From a virus, in the IMG/VR virus record IMGVR_UViG_3300049255_000577, positions 1 through 26,177 of that record: a stretch of 26,177 nucleotides of DNA; one strand, 5' to 3'. A model generated the notes under the pieces. The model worked only from the letters and a program-made list of their open reading frames with translations, made no database searches and had not been told where the DNA came from. Shown piece by piece: positions 5,792-26,177 of this stretch. A program made the translations under genes and the position numbers. Every line of letters starts with the position of its first letter. The stretch's first letter is position 1.

Positions 5792-5826
5792 GAGGTCCTC
5801 GATGGAAAGGGAGTGATGCACCAGCG

Positions 5827-5959
5827 CTTCCCCCTTCCGTCACTCGCACCGCTCGTGACACCTCCCCCGCAAGTGCGGGGGAGGACGCGCGCCTCCATCG
5901 TCCTCCCCCGCTTGCGGGGGAGGTGGCGCGGAGCGTAGCGACGCGACGGAAGGGGGAAG
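5827..5959. repeat. Long palindromic intergenic repeat A
   Basis: A 15-base exact terminal inverted repeat (arms at 5827-5841 and 5945-5959, CTTCCCCCTTCCGTC) encloses two perfect hairpins (5861-5884 and 5902-5923), both built on CCTCCCCCGC/GCGGGGGAGG. It nearly fills the gap between the 71-residue and GNAT-like genes. It looks like a chromosomal intergenic (REP/MITE-like) element rather than phage DNA; that origin is inferred from form. Confidence 0.8.
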
Positions 5960-5970
5960 TGCTACCTCGC

Positions 5971-9768: not shown

Positions 9769-9915
9769 GCCCTCTCCGCCTCGCTGAGCTCGGCACCTCT
9801 CCCATCGCGCTACGCGCGACGGGCGAGGGAAGGACTGTGCGTTTCCCTCGCCCGTCCGCGAAGCGGATGGGAGAGGTGTCATCGCGCGTACTTCACGCGC
9901 GATGACGGAGAGGGC
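9769..9915. repeat. Long palindromic intergenic repeat B
   Basis: Nested inverted repeats fill most of the 205-base gap: an outer pair at 9769-9778/9906-9915 (GCCCTCTCCG), a 13-base pair at 9794-9806/9866-9878 and another 13-base pair at 9818-9830/9844-9856, with a further small hairpin (ATCGCGCG...CGCGCGAT) near 9881-9904. No T run follows, so it is not an obvious terminator. It differs in sequence from repeats A and C. Confidence 0.8.
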
Positions 9916-10481: not shown

Positions 10482-10621
10482 CAAAAAAAAGGTTGTCATC
10501 CCCGGCCGAGCGAACGAAGTGAGCGAGGGGAAGGGGACCCAGGTGAAGCACCGCGGTGCCCGACGACCTGGGTCCCCTTCCCTCACGCACGCTGTCGCGT
10601 GCGCTCGCCGGGGATGACAAC
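10482..10621 (-). terminator. Palindromic repeat C ending in a T8 run, after the capsid gene
   Basis: A 15-base exact stem (10492-10506 with 10607-10621, GTTGTCATCCCCGGC) and a nested 17-base stem (10528-10544 with 10566-10582) fill the gap after the capsid stop. Read on the minus strand, the outer stem runs directly into eight T's (10483-10490), the layout of a rho-independent terminator. The ribosome site of the next gene lies immediately beyond. It probably lowers transcription past the capsid gene. The long hairpin resembles repeats scattered in alphaproteobacterial chromosomes. Confidence 0.72.
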
Positions 10622-10626
10622 GAGGT

Positions 10627-11583
10627 TTAAGCCAGGTCCCTCACCGCGCCGTGGGCCTTCTGGTTCTTCATCACCAGGCACTTCTCGCCGGTGAGGATGA
10701 ACCGTTCGGAGTCGCCGGTTTTCGCCAACGGCTCGGTTGCCCAGCCGCGCAGCGTGCCGACGGCGACCATCTCCGGATCGACGAGGCAGCAATCGCGTCC
10801 GAGCCCATAGGCATGCGGGATCAGCGCGAGATTGCCGAAGTCCGACACATAGACGTCGGCCGCCCCGATGATCGTCGCCATCGCATCGCCCGGCGCATCC
10901 TTGCGGATCGAGGCGATGCCGGTGAAGGCCGAGAACGCCTGCTTGTGCGCCGGCCCGACATAGGCCTGCTTCGGCTTGCCGCCATTCGCGAAGCAGGCGG
11001 ACAGCACCTGCTTCACCAGCGCCTCGGTGAAAGTGCGCTGCGTGCCGTTGGTCGCCGCGGTGACGATGCCGCTGGCGAAGCCGCCGTCGGAACCGCCCGC
11101 GCCGTCGGAGGTGTTGAGGCTCAGCCAGGCGAGGAAGCCGCCCGTGCCGCGCGGCGTCGCGCCGGACTCCGCGTTGGACGCGTAATTGCCGATGACGCGC
11201 TTTTCGAAATCGCGCTTGGCCTCGATGCCCTTCAGCACCTTCTGCCGGTTCATCTCGGACTTGCGCCCGGCCTTGTCGACGATCTCTTCCGTGCCCGACA
11301 CGCCGCCCGTCTTGCGCACGATCTGGCAGTAATTGCCGACGCGGCTCGTCAGGTTGGGAGAATCGAGCGAGGCGATGTCGTCGCCTTCGAGCTGGGCGTT
11401 GGCGGCGTTCGGCGTGGCGAGCGTTTCCGTCTGCCACTCGTGATACACGGCCTTCGCCGTGACCTTGCCGATGTTGGAGGTGAAGGGCGTGTCTTCCGGC
11501 GCGACGCGGTAGATCACGTCCTCCAGGTCCTCGCGGTTGCCGACGCTGACGAGCGTCGTCGTGGTGTTGGTGGGTGCGGTCAT
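10627..11583 (-). CDS. Major capsid protein (SU10/DUF5309-like)
   Basis: The 318-residue protein shows the pattern of the SU10-type HK97-fold capsid family: REDLEDVIYRVAPEDTPFTSNIGK near the N terminus (about 17-40), HEWQTETLATP, the spine-like stretch KSEMNRQKVLKGIEAKRDFEKRVI (about 108-131), GGFLAWL, the TFTEALVKQVLSACFANGGKPKQAYVGPAHKQAFSAF block, and a C-terminal beta region with DVYVSDFGNLALIPH and PEMVAVGTLRGW. It would assemble on the scaffold encoded just upstream, three bases away. GAGGA precedes the ATG at 11583. A terminator-like repeat follows, which fits the usual need for far more capsid than tail protein. Confidence 0.9.
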   Translation of the reverse strand: MTAPTNTTTTLVSVGNREDLEDVIYRVAPEDTPFTSNIGKVTAKAVYHEWQTETLATPNAANAQLEGDDIASLDSPNLTSRVGNYCQIVRKTGGVSGTEEIVDKAGRKSEMNRQKVLKGIEAKRDFEKRVIGNYASNAESGATPRGTGGFLAWLSLNTSDGAGGSDGGFASGIVTAATNGTQRTFTEALVKQVLSACFANGGKPKQAYVGPAHKQAFSAFTGIASIRKDAPGDAMATIIGAADVYVSDFGNLALIPHAYGLGRDCCLVDPEMVAVGTLRGWATEPLAKTGDSERFILTGEKCLVMKNQKAHGAVRDLA

Positions 11584-11586
11584 GCC

Positions 11587-12579
11587 TTATCCTCTTGCGT
11601 TGAGCAGCGCGACCGCGTCGTCGACGCGGCCCGTCGAGCGGAGCCGTTTCATCGCGTCGTCGGCGGAGCGCTGCGAGTTGGAGCGCTGCGGCGCCGCCGT
11701 GGGTCTCACGACAGGACGCGCCTGCTGCGCCGGTTGCTTTCGTGCGAGCTCGGACGCTTTCGCCTGCGCCTGGCGCCACCGCATGGCGTCGTACGCAATC
11801 GCGGCCTCGTCGGCGCTCATCTGCTGGATGCGGTCGGCCGGAAAGCCCATGCCCAGGAGGAACGTCCCCAGCTGGCGCTTCCGCTCCGGACCGTGCGTCT
11901 CGTCCGCGAGCTCCGGCGCCGCGGTCTTGAGCTTCTCGCTCTCCGCGGCGACGAATTTGCGGAACTGGTCCTCGCGCGCCGCCTGCTGCAGCGCGTGAAG
12001 CTGGACCATCGTGTCGCGCTCTTTCTCGAACTGCGCCTTCAGCTTGAACGCCTCGTCCGCGCCCACCTGGTCCGGCAACGTGGACCAGTCGATATTGGCC
12101 CAGCGGTTCTGGAACAGGTTCGCGATGTCGGGTGCGAGCTGGTCGAGATAGGCGAGCCTTCGGCCCACCTCCGCGACGCCGGCCTCGGCATGCTTGCGCG
12201 CCGCCGCCGCTTCCTGCTTGGCCCGCGACGTCACGCGCTCGCGCATATCCTCCTGCTGAAACACGACGGCTTGCAGCTCGGGAGGAAGGCTCGCGAACCG
12301 CGCCTTCGCCTCTTTGGACCACCAGCGCGGCGGTTCCGGCGCCGCAATCTCCTGCGCACCCTCCTCCGCACTGTCGTCATCGGCATCGCCGGGCCCGTCG
12401 CTCTCGCGCTCGGCCTCGCTGCCGGACTCTTCTTCAGCTGCGGATGCAGCCGGAGTCTCGATCGACGCGCCCGTCTCCGGCGCCTCATCCTCCTTCTCGC
12501 GCGGCTCCGCGCCGAGAAGATGTGCGGCGGCGTCCACGGACAAAGCCGTATCGCCCGCCACTTTCGTGTCGGTGGTCAT
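11587..12579 (-). CDS. Capsid scaffolding protein
   Basis: The 330-residue product is rich in charged residues and Ala. It has an acidic disordered N terminus (about 20-80, with EEESGSEAERESD and DADDDSAEEG), a conserved PRWWSKEAKARFASLPPELQ block (about 83-102), long helical coiled-coil segments (about 105-245) and a basic C-terminal tail (KRLRSTGRVDDAVALL) of the kind that binds capsid subunits. Position directly before the capsid gene and after portal is diagnostic for podovirus scaffolds. It directs procapsid assembly and then leaves. AGGAG precedes the ATG at 12579. Confidence 0.85.
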   Translation of the reverse strand: MTTDTKVAGDTALSVDAAAHLLGAEPREKEDEAPETGASIETPAASAAEEESGSEAERESDGPGDADDDSAEEGAQEIAAPEPPRWWSKEAKARFASLPPELQAVVFQQEDMRERVTSRAKQEAAAARKHAEAGVAEVGRRLAYLDQLAPDIANLFQNRWANIDWSTLPDQVGADEAFKLKAQFEKERDTMVQLHALQQAAREDQFRKFVAAESEKLKTAAPELADETHGPERKRQLGTFLLGMGFPADRIQQMSADEAAIAYDAMRWRQAQAKASELARKQPAQQARPVVRPTAAPQRSNSQRSADDAMKRLRSTGRVDDAVALLNARG

Positions 12580-12607
12580 GTGTGTCGTCTCCTGATTTTA
12601 AGAGTCA

Positions 12608-12646
12608 CCCCGCCCCCTGCGGGCGGGGGGCCGGGGGGTGGGGGAG
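12608..12646. repeat. GC-rich palindrome D on the left side of hipBA
   Basis: The perfect 22-base match to the palindrome at 14315-14336 begins here (12608-12629; core CCGCCCCCTGCGGGCGGGG), followed by a G-rich stretch that is also similar between the two copies. It lies between the hipA stop and the scaffold start. A clear T run is absent. Confidence 0.75.
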
Positions 12647-12666: not shown

Positions 12667-13947
12667 CTATCGCGCGTCGAGTATCTTGCGGCACTTGTCG
12701 GCGCGCGCGACGAGAGCGACGACCAACCGGTCGATTGTTGAACTGCTCAAGCCGTCGTTTTTTGCCTTCGCTGCGGCGGCTCTTGCTTCGTCAGGCAGAC
12801 GCGTGGCCATTGCTCGCAGGCGGGAGATCATCTCGTCCGGATCGACGCGGATTTCGCGCGCAAGCTTGTGCCATTGTCGAATGCCTATCGCGTCAAGTTC
12901 GTATTCTCCACCGACCTTCATGGCGAGTTTGGCTTTGCGCAAGTCGAACGCTTTGTACGGCAAAAGGCTGGCGATGTCGTAGAGGGGTGCCAGCCTTACC
13001 CGCGGACCGCTGAGCAGGAGCGAATAGTTTTTGGCGTGCGCATCGGTACCGGCCACCAGCCAATTGAAGCCGATTGCGTCGATGAAGGTCTGGATATCGT
13101 CTACGGAGTTGCTGGAAAAGTTTCTCAGCAGATCCACGATTTGGGCAACGCCGGGCCCTCCCTCATTTTGATATTTCCGCGTCGGCATGACGCCTAACGA
13201 TTGGCAGACGTCTTCCTGGTGAACTCTTATGAGCTGGTTGCCGGAGCGAAAGCGATCGTAACGTTCGACGACAATGGCGACCTCGTTCTCGAAGCGCATC
13301 ACGTTGGAGGAGGCGGTAGGCATGCCGAGAGCCCGGGCCAAAGCGAGGCAGACATGCTCATTTTCCGCATGCCCGTCGAACTGTCCGGTTGGCGGCTTCA
13401 GAATGTGAGTCGTCGGCAATCGACCGGATGGGATGCCCCATCTGTCGTTCTCGCGCATAAGCGCGGTTTTGGGTTGCGCCCCGGCGAGACTGAACTGACC
13501 GGTATCGTCGGGCAGCCGCCAGGCTGCATGATCTTCGCGTAACGCTCTCAGTCGCTTTGCTATGGCGGCTTCGTCGAGCCATTCGACTTTATCTTCGGCG
13601 CCGCTCAGGACAGACGTCAGCGCATCCGGACCGACAAATTGAATCGCGCCCGCGCAATCCTCGCCGACATTGGCCAGGAGCGAGAATACATTCCGGGCTG
13701 AGACGTGAAATTTTCGCGCCCACCTGTCGAGGACCTGCTCATTGTCCGGCAGGAGGCCCCACATAAACGCCTCGATCACGTCCGGGCTGTGCTCTGGAGC
13801 GTCCAGTGGCATGGACAGCGAAATGGGATAAGCGTCGTCGGCCTGCCGCCAGGCTGCTTCATATTCGAATGTCAGCTCTCCGCGTTTTTGCTGGCGGACG
13901 CGACCTGCGACTTGCCCGGCGAGGAGAACGATAAGTTCGTCTGTCAT
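12667..13947 (-). CDS. hipA: HipA-type serine/threonine kinase toxin
   Basis: The 426-residue protein has the full HipA plan. The N-terminal domain carries a SLSMPL segment and the FMWGLLPDN motif (about 43-70). The phosphate-binding activation loop FSLAGAQPKTAL lies at about 152-163 with its serine at 153. ILKP is at about 182-185, catalytic GTDAHAKNYSLL at about 300-311 (Asp302), and the metal-binding PLYDIASLLPY at about 321-331 (Asp324). Known HipA kinases phosphorylate aminoacyl-tRNA synthetases, which stops translation and causes growth arrest; the target here is unknown. It is coupled to hipB by a 4-base overlap (ATGA). Catalytic residues look intact. It sits inside a phage late operon, on the same strand, which is unusual. 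Confidence 0.93.
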   Translation of the reverse strand: MTDELIVLLAGQVAGRVRQQKRGELTFEYEAAWRQADDAYPISLSMPLDAPEHSPDVIEAFMWGLLPDNEQVLDRWARKFHVSARNVFSLLANVGEDCAGAIQFVGPDALTSVLSGAEDKVEWLDEAAIAKRLRALREDHAAWRLPDDTGQFSLAGAQPKTALMRENDRWGIPSGRLPTTHILKPPTGQFDGHAENEHVCLALARALGMPTASSNVMRFENEVAIVVERYDRFRSGNQLIRVHQEDVCQSLGVMPTRKYQNEGGPGVAQIVDLLRNFSSNSVDDIQTFIDAIGFNWLVAGTDAHAKNYSLLLSGPRVRLAPLYDIASLLPYKAFDLRKAKLAMKVGGEYELDAIGIRQWHKLAREIRVDPDEMISRLRAMATRLPDEARAAAAKAKNDGLSSSTIDRLVVALVARADKCRKILDAR

Positions 13948-14228
13948 CGCGCAGGCGTCTTTTTCGCGGCCGAGACAATTGCATCGATGTCGGGAGCAGA
14001 AGGCGACTTCGGCCTAGGATTGGGGAGGAAAATTTCGAGGCTCAGGCCGAGCGCATTGATTGCGCGGAGAACGAGTCCAAGTTCTGCACGCGCACGCCCC
14101 TTTTCGACGGCGATGATCCATTGCCGGCTGGTGCCGATGCGTTTGGCCAGGTCGGCTTGCCCGAGACCGAGCGCTTTCCGCTGGTTTCGGATGGCTGCTC
14201 CAACTTGGCCGGGGGTGCGGATAGTCAT
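13944..14228 (-). CDS. hipB: HipB-like antitoxin, Xre-family repressor
   Basis: The 94-residue protein has a Cro/CI-type helix-turn-helix over about residues 8-62 (VGAAIRNQRKALGLGQADLAKRIG, then TSRQWIIAVEKG) with the RTPGQVG start common in HipB. A flexible tail (PNPRPKSPSAPDIDAIVSAAKK) probably contacts HipA. It should neutralise HipA and repress its own operon through the three palindromes upstream. AAGGA precedes the ATG at 14228. The recognition helix faces TGTCA/TGACA half-sites in place of the TATCC of E. coli HipB; half-site size and spacing are the same. Confidence 0.92.
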   Translation of the reverse strand: MTIRTPGQVGAAIRNQRKALGLGQADLAKRIGTSRQWIIAVEKGRARAELGLVLRAINALGLSLEIFLPNPRPKSPSAPDIDAIVSAAKKTPAR

Positions 14229-14238
14229 GGGATCCTTA

Positions 14239-14310
14239 TGTCAGCGAGCATTGACATCATAGCTATGTCAGCGATCATTGACAATCCAAATATGTAATCG
14301 ATCACTGACA
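14239..14310 (-). promoter_or_regulatory. Three hipBA operators, evenly spaced
   Basis: Three 18-base palindromes with consensus TGTCA-N8-TGACA lie at 14239-14256 (TGTCAGCGAGCATTGACA), 14266-14283 (TGTCAGCGATCATTGACA) and 14293-14310 (TGTAATCGATCACTGACA). Start-to-start spacing is exactly 27 bases in both intervals. The 5+8+5 layout equals that of the E. coli HipB operators. The outermost copy has one imperfect half-site. They cover the promoter described next, so HipB autoregulation is the natural reading. Confidence 0.88.
14256..14284 (-). promoter_or_regulatory. hipBA promoter
   Basis: On the minus strand a -35 element TTGTCA (14279-14284) and a -10 element TATGAT (14256-14261) are separated by 17 bases. 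The -35 lies in the middle operator and the -10 touches the edge of the proximal one, so bound HipB would block RNA polymerase. This promoter allows expression in the lysogen independent of late phage transcription. Confidence 0.8.
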
Positions 14311-14312
14311 TT

Positions 14313-14421
14313 CCCCCCGCCCCCTGCGGGCGGGGGCAGGGGGTGGGGGTGCTGATCGAAATCTCCAACGCCGGAATCCGCGTCGCGACCCCCACCCCTG
14401 CCCCGCCCGCGGGGGGCGGGG
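14313..14421. repeat. GC-rich palindrome E on the right side of hipBA
   Basis: Two arms (about 14313-14350 and 14390-14421) made of CCCCGCCC/GGGCGGGG and GGGGTGGGGGT blocks pair almost perfectly around a 40-base centre. The first arm shares 22 identical bases (14315-14336) with palindrome D at 12608-12629. It fills the gap between the hipB operators and the 85-residue gene. Confidence 0.78.
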
Positions 14422-14429
14422 AAATCTCG

Positions 14430-14687
14430 CTAGTTCTTCGCCACCGCCTCCGCCGCATCCCGCGCCGCCGCCTCGATCTTCCCGGCGTCCACCACCTGCC
14501 GCAGCGCCGCGCGCACCGCGTCCAGCGATTGCACCGCGTGATAGAGCCGCTCGCGTTCGTCGCCGGCGTTGAGCGGCGACTCCAGCAGGCGTTTCACCAT
14601 CGCCGCGCGCACCGCCGCGAACGCGGCCTCCGTCTCTGCGAGCTCGCGCCCCGCCCGCTCGCCCCGCGCCATCGCCTCCGTGCTCAT
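14430..14687 (-). CDS. Small helical protein downstream of portal
   Basis: The 85-residue product is almost all helix and rich in Ala, Glu and Arg (MSTEAMARGERAGRELAETEAAFAAVR..., LYHAVQSLDAVRAALRQVVDAGKIEAAARD). Proteins of this size and pattern, with AFxxxxxxxxxxLxxxP and a closing VxxGKIEA, often lie between the portal and scaffold genes of podoviruses; I know of no defined function. It overlaps the portal stop by 4 bases (ATGA). The hipBA cassette now separates it from the scaffold gene. Confidence 0.75.
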   Translation of the reverse strand: MSTEAMARGERAGRELAETEAAFAAVRAAMVKRLLESPLNAGDERERLYHAVQSLDAVRAALRQVVDAGKIEAAARDAAEAVAKN

Positions 14688-16792
14688 ACCGTCCCTCCGT
14701 TCAGCGACACCGCCGGCAGCGGCACCGTCGGCTTTCCGTCCGCGAGCGCATGGGCGAGATCGACCTTGGTCCGGCTGTCGATGTCGTAGCGCTTGAGCGC
14801 GAGCTCGCCTTCCATTTGCGCCCGCTTCAGCGCGGCCTCGCTGTCGATCTGCTTCGATGTGTTCGCCGCATCCATCGCGTATTTCTGCGTCTCGCGCTGA
14901 TGCTCAAGCTGCGCCTTCACCAGCTCGGGCGGCTGTTGCGGCGCCGGCGGTCGCGGCGCATTCGGGCTCGTCGGATCGGTCAGGAACCGCTCCGGCGCCT
15001 TGATGCCTAGCTTGCCGAACATGTAGGCCGCCATGGCATAGACGTTCGCCTCGGTCACAATGGGTCCCTGCGCGCCGCCCTGCCCGGCCACGATCTGCTG
15101 CAGGATCTGCGAGGCCTGCGCCGCCATGGCGAGATCGTGCGACTGGCCCGAGGCGCCGAGGCCGATCTCGATCGTCATCTCGTTGCGCTCGCCCCAGCTC
15201 GTCGGATCGACCGGGATCCACTGCCCGCGCAGCCGCGCATAGCGCGTGCTCGCGCAGTTCTCGCGGATCAGCGCATGCACGCCGAGGAACAGGTCCTTGA
15301 TCCCCGACTCCGCGAAGACGCGCGCGATCAGCCGCACGCGCTTCTGCGCCGCCGTCATCAGCGCCATCGCGCCGGTGGCGGAGTCGTGCAGCGTGTCCGG
15401 GTTGAGCCCCTGGGCGTTGCGCACGATCCCCGTGCGCTGCTCCGCGACGGTCGCGAAATATTCGAGCGCGCCGAAGGCGTCGAACGACAGGGCGCCGCTC
15501 GCCACCGGCCGCACCGCATTGCCGGTGCGCGAGCGGATCGGCACGCCCGGCTCGTTGCGCAGCAGGTCGGAGATCGTGTACTCGCCCGCCTGGTCGGTCG
15601 AGACCTCGACGCGCTGGTTGAGCGCGAAATAGCCCGAGTCGAGCACCATGCGCGTCAGCGCCGTCTTGATCCGCTGCACTTCGAGCAGAAGATCCGCGAG
15701 CGAGCGGCCATAAATTCGGTGCGTCACCGGATAGGGCGTGATGGCGGCGAACATCACGCGGTTCAGCTTCTCCTTCTCGATCAGCTTGGTCTCGTCCGCC
15801 GACGTCACCACGCGCCAGTATTCCATCTTGCCCGTGTCGGGCGAGCGCAGCTTGATGCAATGGGTGACGACCTCGACCTGGCGCAGGTCGTGCGGCTCGC
15901 CCGCATTGGCGTCGCGCGCCGTGTGCTCGCCGGCGGTGTCGCGCGCCATCTCGACGCTCGCATCCTCGCGATTGCCGTAGGGCGGCAGCGCATCCACGAT
16001 CTCCTGCGCGATGCCGCGGTCGAGGAGATCCTGCGCCCTTGGCCTTGCGCGCATCGCGCAATAGGTCGCGTCGCGCAGCGCCACCGTGTCCGCCGCGACG
16101 GTGAAATCGTCCGGCGAGACCGCCATGATCTTCACGTCGGACTTGTCCACCGTCTGGCGGAAGGTGAAGGAATAGGTCGGCAGCGCGCCGTCCGCGACCG
16201 GATCGGGCTCGAGGTCGAGGATCTCGCCGTCCTGCGCCGCCAGCGCGATCTCTACCGCGCTCTTGCCCGAGAAGCGCTCGTCGCGGATGTCGATATCCTC
16301 TTCCCACCAGAACATGAACACGCCGAGCTTCTCGAGCAGCGCGTCCTTGATGGCGGTGTAGAAAGTCATGAACCCGTCATTCTTGTGGAAGACGACATGG
16401 TTCGTGTAGTCGGTCTCCTGCTGCGCCTGGGCTTCGTCGGCCTCGGAGAGCGGCGTGAAGGCGGCCACGTCGTTGCCGCCGGTGAAGATCTCGATCAGGT
16501 CGGGCAGCACCGTCTCGATCGCATCGGCGACGTCGGTGGACACCGCGCGCGAGCGGTTCGGCAGCGAAGGCACGTCGGGCATCACGCCCTTGAAGTAGTT
16601 CAGCGCCAGCTCGCGCTCGGCGATCAGCTCGCGGTCGCCCTCGAAGCCGATCGAGGCCTCGCGCTCGCGCGCGACCAGGCGCAGGAGCTCGTCGTCGGAA
16701 TAGCCGGGATCGGCATTTGCGGGTGCATCCTTGGCGGGTTCCGCGGAAGGACCCGGCGTTGCCGAAAGATGCGGCAAATTGGGATTTGTCAC
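14684..16792 (-). CDS. Portal protein (P22/SU10-type)
   Basis: The 702-residue protein matches large podovirus portals. It has an N-terminal YSDDELLRLVAREREAS helix (about 30-46) and RELALNYFKGVMPDVPSLPNRSRAVSTDVADAIETVLPDLIEIF (about 65-105). Later come a KLGVFMFWWEED segment, an FTVAADTVALRDA block, the TPYPVTHRIYGRSLADLLLEVQRIKTALTRMVLDSGYFA stem helix, and a C-terminal barrel helix rich in Gln/Glu/Ala (KAQLEHQRETQKYAMDAANTSKQ). It forms the DNA channel at one capsid vertex and binds terminase and the adaptor. The start is a GTG (16790-16792) with GAGGA upstream; no ATG is available before the conserved region. The rightward cassette lies directly upstream, so its mRNA source is unclear. 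Confidence 0.9.
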   Translation of the reverse strand: MTNPNLPHLSATPGPSAEPAKDAPANADPGYSDDELLRLVAREREASIGFEGDRELIAERELALNYFKGVMPDVPSLPNRSRAVSTDVADAIETVLPDLIEIFTGGNDVAAFTPLSEADEAQAQQETDYTNHVVFHKNDGFMTFYTAIKDALLEKLGVFMFWWEEDIDIRDERFSGKSAVEIALAAQDGEILDLEPDPVADGALPTYSFTFRQTVDKSDVKIMAVSPDDFTVAADTVALRDATYCAMRARPRAQDLLDRGIAQEIVDALPPYGNREDASVEMARDTAGEHTARDANAGEPHDLRQVEVVTHCIKLRSPDTGKMEYWRVVTSADETKLIEKEKLNRVMFAAITPYPVTHRIYGRSLADLLLEVQRIKTALTRMVLDSGYFALNQRVEVSTDQAGEYTISDLLRNEPGVPIRSRTGNAVRPVASGALSFDAFGALEYFATVAEQRTGIVRNAQGLNPDTLHDSATGAMALMTAAQKRVRLIARVFAESGIKDLFLGVHALIRENCASTRYARLRGQWIPVDPTSWGERNEMTIEIGLGASGQSHDLAMAAQASQILQQIVAGQGGAQGPIVTEANVYAMAAYMFGKLGIKAPERFLTDPTSPNAPRPPAPQQPPELVKAQLEHQRETQKYAMDAANTSKQIDSEAALKRAQMEGELALKRYDIDSRTKVDLAHALADGKPTVPLPAVSLNGGTV

Positions 16793-17094: not shown

Positions 17095-18354
17095 ATGAGC
17101 ACGACCGCAACCACGCCCGGGATCGAGCACCACCGCGTCGGCGGAGCCATCGCGCCGCGCGACCGCTTCGATGCGCTCGACTCCCTCCGGGGCATCTGCG
17201 CCCTTCTCGTCGCCCTGCATCACTTCGTGATCTTCTCGAACGCCAATCTCGCGAAGGTCGGCTTCGTCCAGAACGCGTTCCTGTTCGTCGATTTCTTCTT
17301 CGTCCTGAGCGGATTCGTGATTTGCCACGCCTACGGCTCCCGCATCGCCGGCACGGCGGACCTCGCGAACTTCATGATCCGGCGTTTCGGCCGGCTGTGG
17401 CCGCTGCATGCCGCGGTGCTGGCCGCTTTCCTCCTGATGATCCTGCTCTGCCAGCTGCTTCCTCACCCCGCGTTTCTCGATCTCACCCTCTTCAAGGGGT
17501 CGAGATTTTCTCTGGCCAAGCTGCTTCTTGCGACCATCTTCCTCGGCTCCTTTCATATCGCCGAGCTGGGCTGGAACATGCCGAGCTGGAGCATCAGCGC
17601 CGAATTCGCCATGTACTTCGTGTTCGGCCTCGTCTGCATCGCCGGCCGCCGCCGCCTGCCGCTGATTTCAGCGCTGGTCGTCCTCGGCGCGCTTCTGTTT
17701 CTTTCGCGGCTCCGGGGCGTCTACATCACCACGACCTCCGATTTCGGCCTCGTGCGTTGCGCGCTCGGCTTCTTTCTCGGTGTGCTCGTCTACTTTAGCT
17801 ACAGGTCATTTGTAGTTTTCCGAGCGCTTTCGAGGACATTTGCCACAGCGATCGAGACGGTTACCATCGTCATCGCCATTGCTTATGTTTCGCTGGTCGC
17901 CGGTGCGGAACCCAGCCCGAGTTCCGCTACGCTCGCCGCGCCATTCGTCTTTGCCCTTGTAGTATTCAGCATCGCAATTGGACGAGGTGCGCTGTCTAGC
18001 GCCCTGGTTGCCAAGCCAGCTATCAGATTGGGCGAACTGTCATACTCGATCTACATGGTCCATTGGATGGTCTTTATGGCCGCTGACTGGGCGATATTTA
18101 TGATTTCCGCCGCTATCAAGGTCCCCTCGCCTGTTGGACCTTGGCCTACCGGAAATGACCTTATCCTGACCTTCACGCATCCAATCTATGCCGACATATT
18201 GGCAATCCCGCTTTGCCTAATGACAATTGGCATATCGATGATCAGCTACCGCTACATAGAAGTGCCATGGCGAACGTACTTCAACAACATCGCTAGACAG
18301 CGCGAGATGAACTCAGTCTCCACACTCCAAGTTCAATCGGGAGCAATCTCTTGA
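17095..18354 (+). CDS. Acyltransferase 3 family membrane protein (OafA-like) 1
   Basis: The 419-residue protein has about ten membrane helices and the acyltransferase-3 signatures: FDALDSLRGICALLVALHHF (about 25-44, with Arg32 and the His42-His43 pair), FFVLSGFVICHAY (about 68-80), IRRFGRLWPLH (about 95-105) and SWSISAEFAMYFV. These enzymes move acyl groups, commonly acetyl, from the cytoplasm to sugars of O-antigen or other surface glycans; phage copies change serotype and block re-infection. The exact acceptor cannot be read from sequence. Base composition drops visibly in GC from about 17.79 kb to the end of the gene, unlike its first half. ATG at 17095 directly follows the previous stop. 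Confidence 0.88.
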   Translation: MSTTATTPGIEHHRVGGAIAPRDRFDALDSLRGICALLVALHHFVIFSNANLAKVGFVQNAFLFVDFFFVLSGFVICHAYGSRIAGTADLANFMIRRFGRLWPLHAAVLAAFLLMILLCQLLPHPAFLDLTLFKGSRFSLAKLLLATIFLGSFHIAELGWNMPSWSISAEFAMYFVFGLVCIAGRRRLPLISALVVLGALLFLSRLRGVYITTTSDFGLVRCALGFFLGVLVYFSYRSFVVFRALSRTFATAIETVTIVIAIAYVSLVAGAEPSPSSATLAAPFVFALVVFSIAIGRGALSSALVAKPAIRLGELSYSIYMVHWMVFMAADWAIFMISAAIKVPSPVGPWPTGNDLILTFTHPIYADILAIPLCLMTIGISMISYRYIEVPWRTYFNNIARQREMNSVSTLQVQSGAIS

Positions 18355-19526
18355 ACGTGTTCGAAAAGCTCGCGTCAGGTCAGACGATCGCGGAACGTAT
18401 CGCAGAGAAGAAGATCACAACAGGCTTCGATTATCTGCGAATTACGTTAGCGGCCGCCGTTGTTCTTTGGCACACCGTCGCGACTTCCTATGGCCTTGCC
18501 GCTCAACAGCCGTTCGTTCATTCGCCGATGCGGCCGCTTATGTTTGCCATCCTGCCGATGTTCTTCGCCCTGAGCGGTTATCTCGTTACTGGTAGTTTGC
18601 TCCGAGCGAAAACAATTTTCGAATTCGTCATGTTGCGTGTTCTTCGGATTGTGCCAGCACTATTTGTTGAGATCTTCCTCTCGGCCTTCCTGCTAGGTGG
18701 TTTGTTTCTCACGACGGTTCCGAAATCGACTTACTTCACGTCGCCGGAGTTTTACGCCTACTTCCTCAATGTAGTCGGAGATATCCACTACTACCTTCCC
18801 GGCGTCTTCGAGACGAACCCGCTGCCCGGCGTCGTAAATGGTCAGCTATGGACGATCCCGTGGGAACTCCAGTGCTATTTTGCGATCACCTGCGCCGCGA
18901 TTGGCTGGTGGCTTTGGCGCCTCGTGTCACGCGATCAATCTGCGACAATATCCAACCAGCGCACCACGTTTCTGGCTTTAGCGATCATCGCGAACATCGC
19001 CGGTTGGGCATATTTTGTTACCCACAAACATCATCAACTCGTAGATATCCAGGCAAATGGCGTCTTGCTTGTAATCGAATTTTTGGCCGGCGTTACGCTC
19101 TATCTATTCCGCGACAAAATTCGGCTCAACGTGTGGCTTTTTGTGATGGCGATCGCCTTCACGTATGTCGTGACGTTGGATTTGCGAACCGAATATGCAG
19201 CCGCGTTCCCGCTCGCTTACGTGATGGTTTATCTTGGAATGACTTCACCGGACAAAAGATGGCTGTTTGGCGGCGCAGACTTCTCGTACGGCCTCTATCT
19301 CTTTGGTTTTCCAATTCAACAAACCTATTCGTACCTGTTTCCCGGCTATCGAATCTGGTGGCTAAACTTCATCTTCGCCATGGCTTTCGGGCTCGCTTAC
19401 GCTGCTTTCTCTTGGTTTTGTGTCGAGAAGCCGATTAACGATAGAAAGAAAATCATAATCGCAGCGGTCAGCAACCTTCTACGAGTTAGGCCAGCCAGCG
19501 CTTTAACGACAGCAAAGTCGGATTGA
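18351..19526 (+). CDS. Acyltransferase 3 family membrane protein 2
   Basis: This 391-residue multi-span protein shows the same family marks, with FDYLRITLAAAVVLWHTV (about 26-43, His41), LPMFFALSGYLVTGSL (about 68-83), FVMLRVLRIVPAL (about 92-104) and LWTIPWELQCYF. It is clearly diverged from its neighbour, so not a recent duplicate; the two may modify different positions or sugars. Translation probably starts at TTG (18351), overlapping the previous stop (TTGA), with GGGAG upstream; an in-frame GTG two codons later is the alternative and no early ATG exists. Its DNA is lower in GC than the phage genes. The stop is two bases from the end of the convergent esterase gene, with no terminator between. 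Confidence 0.87.
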   Translation: MNVFEKLASGQTIAERIAEKKITTGFDYLRITLAAAVVLWHTVATSYGLAAQQPFVHSPMRPLMFAILPMFFALSGYLVTGSLLRAKTIFEFVMLRVLRIVPALFVEIFLSAFLLGGLFLTTVPKSTYFTSPEFYAYFLNVVGDIHYYLPGVFETNPLPGVVNGQLWTIPWELQCYFAITCAAIGWWLWRLVSRDQSATISNQRTTFLALAIIANIAGWAYFVTHKHHQLVDIQANGVLLVIEFLAGVTLYLFRDKIRLNVWLFVMAIAFTYVVTLDLRTEYAAAFPLAYVMVYLGMTSPDKRWLFGGADFSYGLYLFGFPIQQTYSYLFPGYRIWWLNFIFAMAFGLAYAAFSWFCVEKPINDRKKIIIAAVSNLLRVRPASALTTAKSD

Positions 19527-25517: not shown

Positions 25518-26177
25518 ATGACGATGACCGCCCGCGACCTGATTCGCGCCAAGCTCGACGCCCTCGGCCTCTCCATGAAGGAGGCGTCCGAGGCGATCGG
25601 AAAGAACCACGCCTATCTGCAGCAATACCTGGAGCGCGGCGTGCCCGGACAACTGCCCGAGGAGCCGCGGGAAAGACTCGCGACGCTGCTCGGCGTGCAG
25701 CCGCGCGCGCTGAAGGATTCCGCGCCGCTCAGCGAGGCCCGCATCAAGGGGCCGATGCGCAGGCTCGCCGCCGCCAACATCCTCGACCGCATTCCCGTGC
25801 TCGGCATCGCCGAGGGCGGCGAGGACGGCTGGTCGCTGTGGAACGGCGAGACCGTGGACACCGTGCCGACGCCGCCATCGCTTGCCGGCGCGCCAAACGG
25901 CTACGCGACCTATGTCGTCGGCACCAGCATGGAGCCGCGCTACTACCCGGGCGAAGTGATTTACGTGCATCCCGGCAAGCCGGTGACGCCCGGCGCCTAC
26001 GTCGTGGTGCAGGTGAAGCCCAAATCCGACGGCGAGCCGCCGCGCGCCCTCATCAAGCGCCTGGTCAAGCGCACCGCGCTCAAGATCACGCTGGGCCAGT
26101 TCAATCCGGAGAAGACCTTCGACATAGCGCTCAAGGACGTCGTGTCGATGCACCGGATCGTGGGCAGCGGGGAGTAG
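25518..26177 (+). CDS. S24/LexA-like prophage repressor
   Basis: The 219-residue protein has a Cro/CI-like helix-turn-helix (about 5-62, with KEASEAIGKNHAYLQQYLERG) and a C-terminal LexA/S24 domain. The catalytic serine is in GTSMEPRYYPGE (Ser137) and the lysine in ALIKRL (Lys180). It should bind the TAGG-N6-CCTA sites nearby, hold the lysogenic state and be inactivated through RecA-stimulated self-cleavage. The linker holds IAEGG at about 97-101, with no ordinary Ala-Gly bond, so the cleavage site is uncertain. It ends with TAG at the last base of the window. The nearby divergent early promoter supports a CI-type role. Confidence 0.88.
   Translation: MTMTARDLIRAKLDALGLSMKEASEAIGKNHAYLQQYLERGVPGQLPEEPRERLATLLGVQPRALKDSAPLSEARIKGPMRRLAAANILDRIPVLGIAEGGEDGWSLWNGETVDTVPTPPSLAGAPNGYATYVVGTSMEPRYYPGEVIYVHPGKPVTPGAYVVVQVKPKSDGEPPRALIKRLVKRTALKITLGQFNPEKTFDIALKDVVSMHRIVGSGE

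Follow-up and report, generated by a model that had tools for sequence, protein, structure and literature searches.

A 26,177-base IMG/VR virus record, analyzed here over its whole length and referred to as the window, carries an intact hipBA toxin-antitoxin pair among the head genes of an SU10-type phage, and we consider it likely that this pair is a self-regulated moron that serves the lysogen of a probably temperate phage. The portal gene, an 85-aa gene, hipBA, the scaffold gene and the capsid gene all lie on the minus strand (Table 1), as expected from the earlier note on this DNA, which had located hipBA inside the head-assembly operon.

Table 1. Position and supporting evidence for the hipBA locus, its control elements and the phage genes referred to in the text
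Feature	Position	Strand	Evidence
Major capsid protein (SU10 type)	10627-11583	-	Pfam SU10_MCP 1.9e-87
Head scaffolding protein	11587-12579	-	phrog_3927 2e-11
Single GC-rich palindromic repeat downstream of hipA	12605-12644	.	direct copy (90%) of 14312-14349
hipA, HipA-family Ser/Thr kinase toxin, 426 aa	12667-13947	-	Pfam, phmmer and AlphaFold/Foldseek
hipB, Xre/Cro-type HTH antitoxin, 94 aa	13944-14228	-	HTH_31 1.9e-10
Operator O1, TGTCAGCGAGCATTGACA	14239-14256	+	0 mismatches to TGTCA-N8-TGACA; array kept in relatives
Predicted hipBA promoter, TTGTCA-17-TATGAT	14256-14284	-	10/12 consensus; matching geometry upstream of hipB in L113, L007 and L115
Operator O2, TGTCAGCGATCATTGACA, overlapping the -35 element	14266-14283	+	0 mismatches; array kept in relatives
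Operator O3, TGTAATCGATCACTGACA	14293-14310	+	1 mismatch (TGTAA for TGTCA); array kept in relatives
REPIN-like palindrome separating hipB from the 85-aa gene; a pair of GC-rich repeats in inverted orientation	14312-14425	.	RNA fold -94.4 kcal/mol, z -7.2
85-aa gene flanking the insertion on its upstream side, between portal and scaffold	14430-14687	-	same-place homologues in L023, L025, L026 and the G718 prophage
Portal (SU10 type)	14684-16792	-	Pfam SU10_portal 1.3e-152
CI/S24-type repressor	25518-26177	+	Peptidase_S24 1.1e-08; phrog_4 repressor 1.1e-20

HipA matched the Pfam families Couple_hipA in its N-terminal part (1.8e-26) and HipA_C in its C-terminal kinase domain (3.6e-52), both over cut-off, and was homologous to E. 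coli HipA over its full length (phmmer 1.8e-57), which also provided the best PDB matches (Foldseek, TM 0.70-0.76) to the AlphaFold model of the phage protein (pLDDT 78, pTM 0.81). Residues S153, D302 and D324 align with E. coli S150 (the P-loop serine), D309 and D332 (the catalytic and metal-binding aspartates), and the P-loop serine as well as both catalytic aspartates were invariant across 13 HipAs. HipB, with Pfam matches to HTH_31/HTH_3, could be aligned end to end with the HipB of chromosomal relatives. The end of hipB and the start of hipA have four nucleotides (ATGA) in common, and the locus combines the hallmarks of a hipBA system, namely an HTH antitoxin gene directly upstream of and translationally coupled to the toxin gene, a two-domain HipA, the kinase residues and multiple operators at the promoter. 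Open reading frames, Pfam domains and retained catalytic residues agree with the earlier assessment that both genes are intact. Compared with the closest relatives, pN/pS was about 0.3 with pS near saturation, a value that points to purifying selection across the history of the family rather than along the phage branch alone. The C-terminal tryptophan of E. coli-type HipB (PMC3376134) is absent from the phage HipB, which ends in ...AAKKTPAR, and likewise from the aligned chromosomal HipB relatives; based on the alignment, the phage HipB is not placed in the E. coli-type subtype with this tryptophan and a Lon-tag tail (PMC3376134). PADLOC gave weak, partial matches (PDC-M03A, 2.4e-09), which we did not accept as membership in a system.

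The three 18-bp palindromes upstream of hipB start exactly 27 and 27 bp apart and were grouped by a repeat finder into a single 27-nt family. The spacing thus matches the description in the earlier note of three TGTCA-N8-TGACA palindromes 27 bases apart, although just two of them are perfect and the third carries one mismatch. In 300 dinucleotide shuffles the window averaged 0.22 such sites and the 27-27 triple never appeared, which ruled out a chance origin. The 17-base-spaced promoter was likewise found, with TTGTCA (14284-14279) and TATGAT (14261-14256) on the minus strand, in a region containing two promoter-like sites versus 0.5 expected. The -35 element falls on the middle operator and the -10 element touches the first, a predicted geometry that is good for repression.

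Comparison with related loci revealed that the array belongs to the family. Each of the 12 chromosomal hipBA loci with a HipA at least 64% identical to that of the phage (64-67%; Bradyrhizobium, Xanthobacteraceae, Rhodoblastus, a Caulobacter MAG and other alphaproteobacteria) has three to four sites at 26-27 bp, and the same number of sites at 26-28 bp was present at all nine hipBA loci on other viral contigs. The 27-bp spacing, regarded as noteworthy before these comparisons, is therefore not a distinguishing feature of this phage. One chromosomal locus, L113, matches the phage both in the 27-27 spacing and in the TTGTCA-17-TATGAT promoter. At three loci (L007, L008 and L114) the half-sites read GGTNACA where the HipB recognition helix has K or R instead of Q, and this covariation between half-site and helix is the best evidence here for the predicted binding of HipB to the array. 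Because the array is present in relatives and its half-sites shift with the HipB recognition helix, we read it as the hipBA family's own HipB operator. That the palindromes are instead sites for a regulator of the phage, for example the CI-like protein that the window does encode (Table 1), is extremely improbable, since the array sits upstream of hipB in bacterial chromosomes that lack this phage, and sites with at most one mismatch to TGTCA-N8-TGACA are confined within the window to hipBA; a regulator other than HipB was rejected on account of the recurrence of the array at chromosomal hipBA loci.

Binding of E. coli HipB to its four operators is cooperative, and O1 and O2 are 28 bp apart as counted on the printed oligonucleotide (PMC3376134), and the repeats at Caulobacter hipBA1/2 lie at intervals that fit the E. 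coli higher-order complex (PMC7029023). The E. coli K-12 locus shares with the phage locus the HipA homology, fold and kinase residues as well as several palindromic operators at similar spacing, but HipA identity is only about 30% and the half-site is TATCC there versus TGTCA here. With a conserved array located on the promoter, near-E. coli spacing and the covariation, predicted autoregulation by HipB is well supported; in the cooperative autoregulation in the lysogen that the earlier note had proposed, the lysogen setting is plausible. HipB dimers, alone or together with HipA, would occupy the three operators over the promoter and thereby repress it.

In related phages the gene order is portal, a gene of about 85 aa, scaffold and capsid, and the small gene is separated from the scaffold gene by 1 nt in L023, 20 nt in L025, 27 nt in L022 and 151 nt in phiM5, versus 1,850 nt here. 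A tblastn search detected neither hipA nor hipB in 80 IMG/VR relatives and eight annotated phages (in the sequence covered, many of these being fragments). Genome G718 harbors the closest prophage detected (capsid 70%, portal 54-56%), in which the equivalent gap spans 0.2 kb and contains no hipBA but a palindromic repeat belonging to the 5815-5970 family. Judged by this gene order, hipBA was inserted into the head operon, and its GC3 (0.68 for hipA and 0.63 for hipB versus 0.85-0.93 in the scaffold, capsid, portal and 85-aa genes) is consistent with recent entry. Such a cassette would have entered between the 85-aa gene and the scaffold gene, bringing its own promoter and operators. Absence from the same locus in related phages, a predicted promoter of its own and foreign base composition are the features of a phage moron. 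Since hipBA is absent from the related phages and the prophage, it is accessory, and this phage type does not seem to require it, given its absence from the capsid regions of 88 relatives in the sequence covered. The earlier note would have counted an inactive HipA, together with absence of hipBA from closely related functional prophages and no phenotype on its loss, against its proposal; of these, the absence was found, in the surveyed related phages and in a related prophage.

Other genes were also observed between the head genes of related phages. These include an HNH endonuclease gene (L027, 4793-5641) and unidentified genes (L024, 600-2540), both inserted between scaffold and capsid, and, in two Manatee Spring phages, long genes of no known family (about 510-540 aa; L013, 3170-4792, and L016, 3246-4772) in the portal-scaffold interval, where hipBA sits in the present phage. 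On these gene maps, the head region of this phage group is an area of repeated insertion.

Of the phage's own genes, only the repressor listed in Table 1 pointed to lysogeny, and no integrase was seen in this fragment of 26,177 nt. Based on this one repressor gene and on host-type repeats, the phage is probably temperate. Four large REPIN-like palindromes were observed in intergenic gaps (5823-5963, 9794-9878, 10492-10621 and 14315-14421). In one alphaproteobacterial family, 48 of 96 genomes contained the palindrome at 10485-10625, compared with just two of the 289 genomes of a class sample, both members of that family. As this palindrome is concentrated in one family, the host probably belongs to it; UBA1301, from which L007 comes, is a member of this family. 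Between a GDSL-like gene and the portal gene lie two neighboring acyltransferase genes (Acyl_transf_3; 17095-19526, plus strand) of low GC (0.51-0.58), likely a second moron, perhaps for modification of the host surface.

The GC-rich palindromes that bracket hipBA, of which a further, inverted copy lies at 14389-14421, are of a different class from the one at 10485-10625 and nearly absent from the host-like family. There, BLAST returned no match to them (possibly due to low-complexity filtering), a long pattern found none and a short pattern was present in just two of the 96 genomes, while the one exact viral match was the same phage. These palindromes may be traces of the donor or of the way in which hipBA entered. 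The palindrome downstream of hipA has neither a T-run nor excess stability, and the large hairpin upstream of hipB, likewise without a T-run, is not a standard terminator. Since the junctions fall in GC-rich repeats and a second assembly, L162, which represents this phage too (99.96% over window positions 13806-1), breaks inside hipA, so that the hipB-side junction is seen in this window only, an assembly chimera with host hipBA DNA misjoined to phage DNA at these repeats has to be considered. It is very improbable, as the second assembly joins hipA to scaffold and capsid, confirming the hipA-scaffold junction, and the window is continuous across both sides of hipBA. Both assemblies end at the same base, window position 1, perhaps a true terminus or perhaps a shared point of trimming.

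By comparison with other hipBA loci, the pair and its switch are an ordinary, well-conserved traveling cassette, and it is the position and direction that are unusual. Chromosomal loci (Bradyrhizobium, Xanthobacteraceae, Rhodoblastus and Caulobacter, L003-L011; the host-like family, L113-L117) resemble the phage locus in HipA sequence, in overlapping or adjacent hipB and hipA, in the operator array and in promoter geometry, but have bacterial neighbors where checked rather than a phage head operon. The loci on viral contigs (L123-L132; HipA 53-66%) share the operator array and phage neighbors, among them terminase, helicase, DNA methyltransferase and head-tail adaptor genes. In contrast to the co-directional arrangement here, hipBA was opposite to its neighbors in all seven of these contigs with identifiable phage neighbors (L124-L129 and L132). 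On the 39.6-kb viral contig L132 (6686-8168), hipA lacks about 33 codons including the P-loop and carries a frameshift, while hipB and three operators are retained, which shows that loss of the toxin is possible. An impression from the ORF list that hipB and hipA are fused in L123 was rejected, as hipB lies in another frame. Single-protein scans of IMG/VR with HipA or portal returned the same phage or nothing, and alignments were used instead. The tree did not place the phage HipA beside any one chromosomal copy, showing an open fork there and pointing to no particular donor.

Upon a fall in HipB, HipA would be freed to phosphorylate a host target, which in studied relatives is an aminoacyl-tRNA synthetase, and translation would arrest. 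The likeliest benefit would arise in the lysogen, through prophage retention by post-segregational arrest and/or abortion of infection by other phages; both are reasonable by analogy and not mutually exclusive. HipBA stabilizes a plasmid (PMC11487325), the stabilization of a genomic island by HipBA is cited in the same paper, and HipAD, a kinase system of the HipA family, acts in phage defense (PMC13092281). That hipBA is instead a passenger, a selfish or chance cargo that persists through addiction alone with no benefit to the phage, is unlikely though by no means negligible: the distribution is patchy, with a HipA of at least 64% identity in one genome out of 397 from one order, namely the seed genome, and in five out of 96 from another, related phages do without the pair and hipA is broken in L132, whereas the pair and its array are intact in this phage and the recurrence of the cassette in several unrelated phage contexts suggests repeated usefulness.

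Because hipBA is co-directional with the portal, scaffold and capsid genes, late read-through into the toxin gene is possible, and HipB and HipA might then be made during virion assembly, with HipA stopping host translation or blocking a competing phage. Such a late-lytic role, which we regard as improbable, gains from the contrast with the seven viral contigs described above and from Gratiaviridae gut phages, for which late expression of a HipA-family kinase located between portal and capsid was argued by the authors (PMC8008677). It is at odds with the predicted repressed promoter of hipBA itself, with the fact that read-through would yield HipB too, and with the -94 kcal/mol hairpin preceding hipB, even if that is not a standard terminator; no late promoter for read-through was identified. 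It is decidedly improbable that hipBA is wired into the head operon, either with a late transcript that runs through it in lytic growth and makes HipA a late effector or with the HipB-bound array as a roadblock by which portal transcript levels are set relative to those of scaffold and capsid. Service to the lysogen remains our preferred explanation.

A HipA-family kinase between portal and capsid genes thus has a precedent in the Gratiaviridae as described in PMC8008677, where a gene for a surface-modifying enzyme also lies nearby (a glycosyltransferase there, acyltransferases here). The Gratiaviridae kinase is, however, just distantly similar to HipA and has an ATPase and a glycosyltransferase gene upstream, and the passages of that paper on the kinase report neither hipB nor an operator array. 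The present phage would add a case with an antitoxin to the few phages that have a HipA-family kinase among their head genes, and it would make action in the lysogen versus action late in infection testable for such kinases. More generally, hipBA and its operator array appear to move together, as one unit, among bacterial chromosomes and unrelated phages, which provides a natural set of HipB-operator pairs from which the DNA specificity of HipB may be read.
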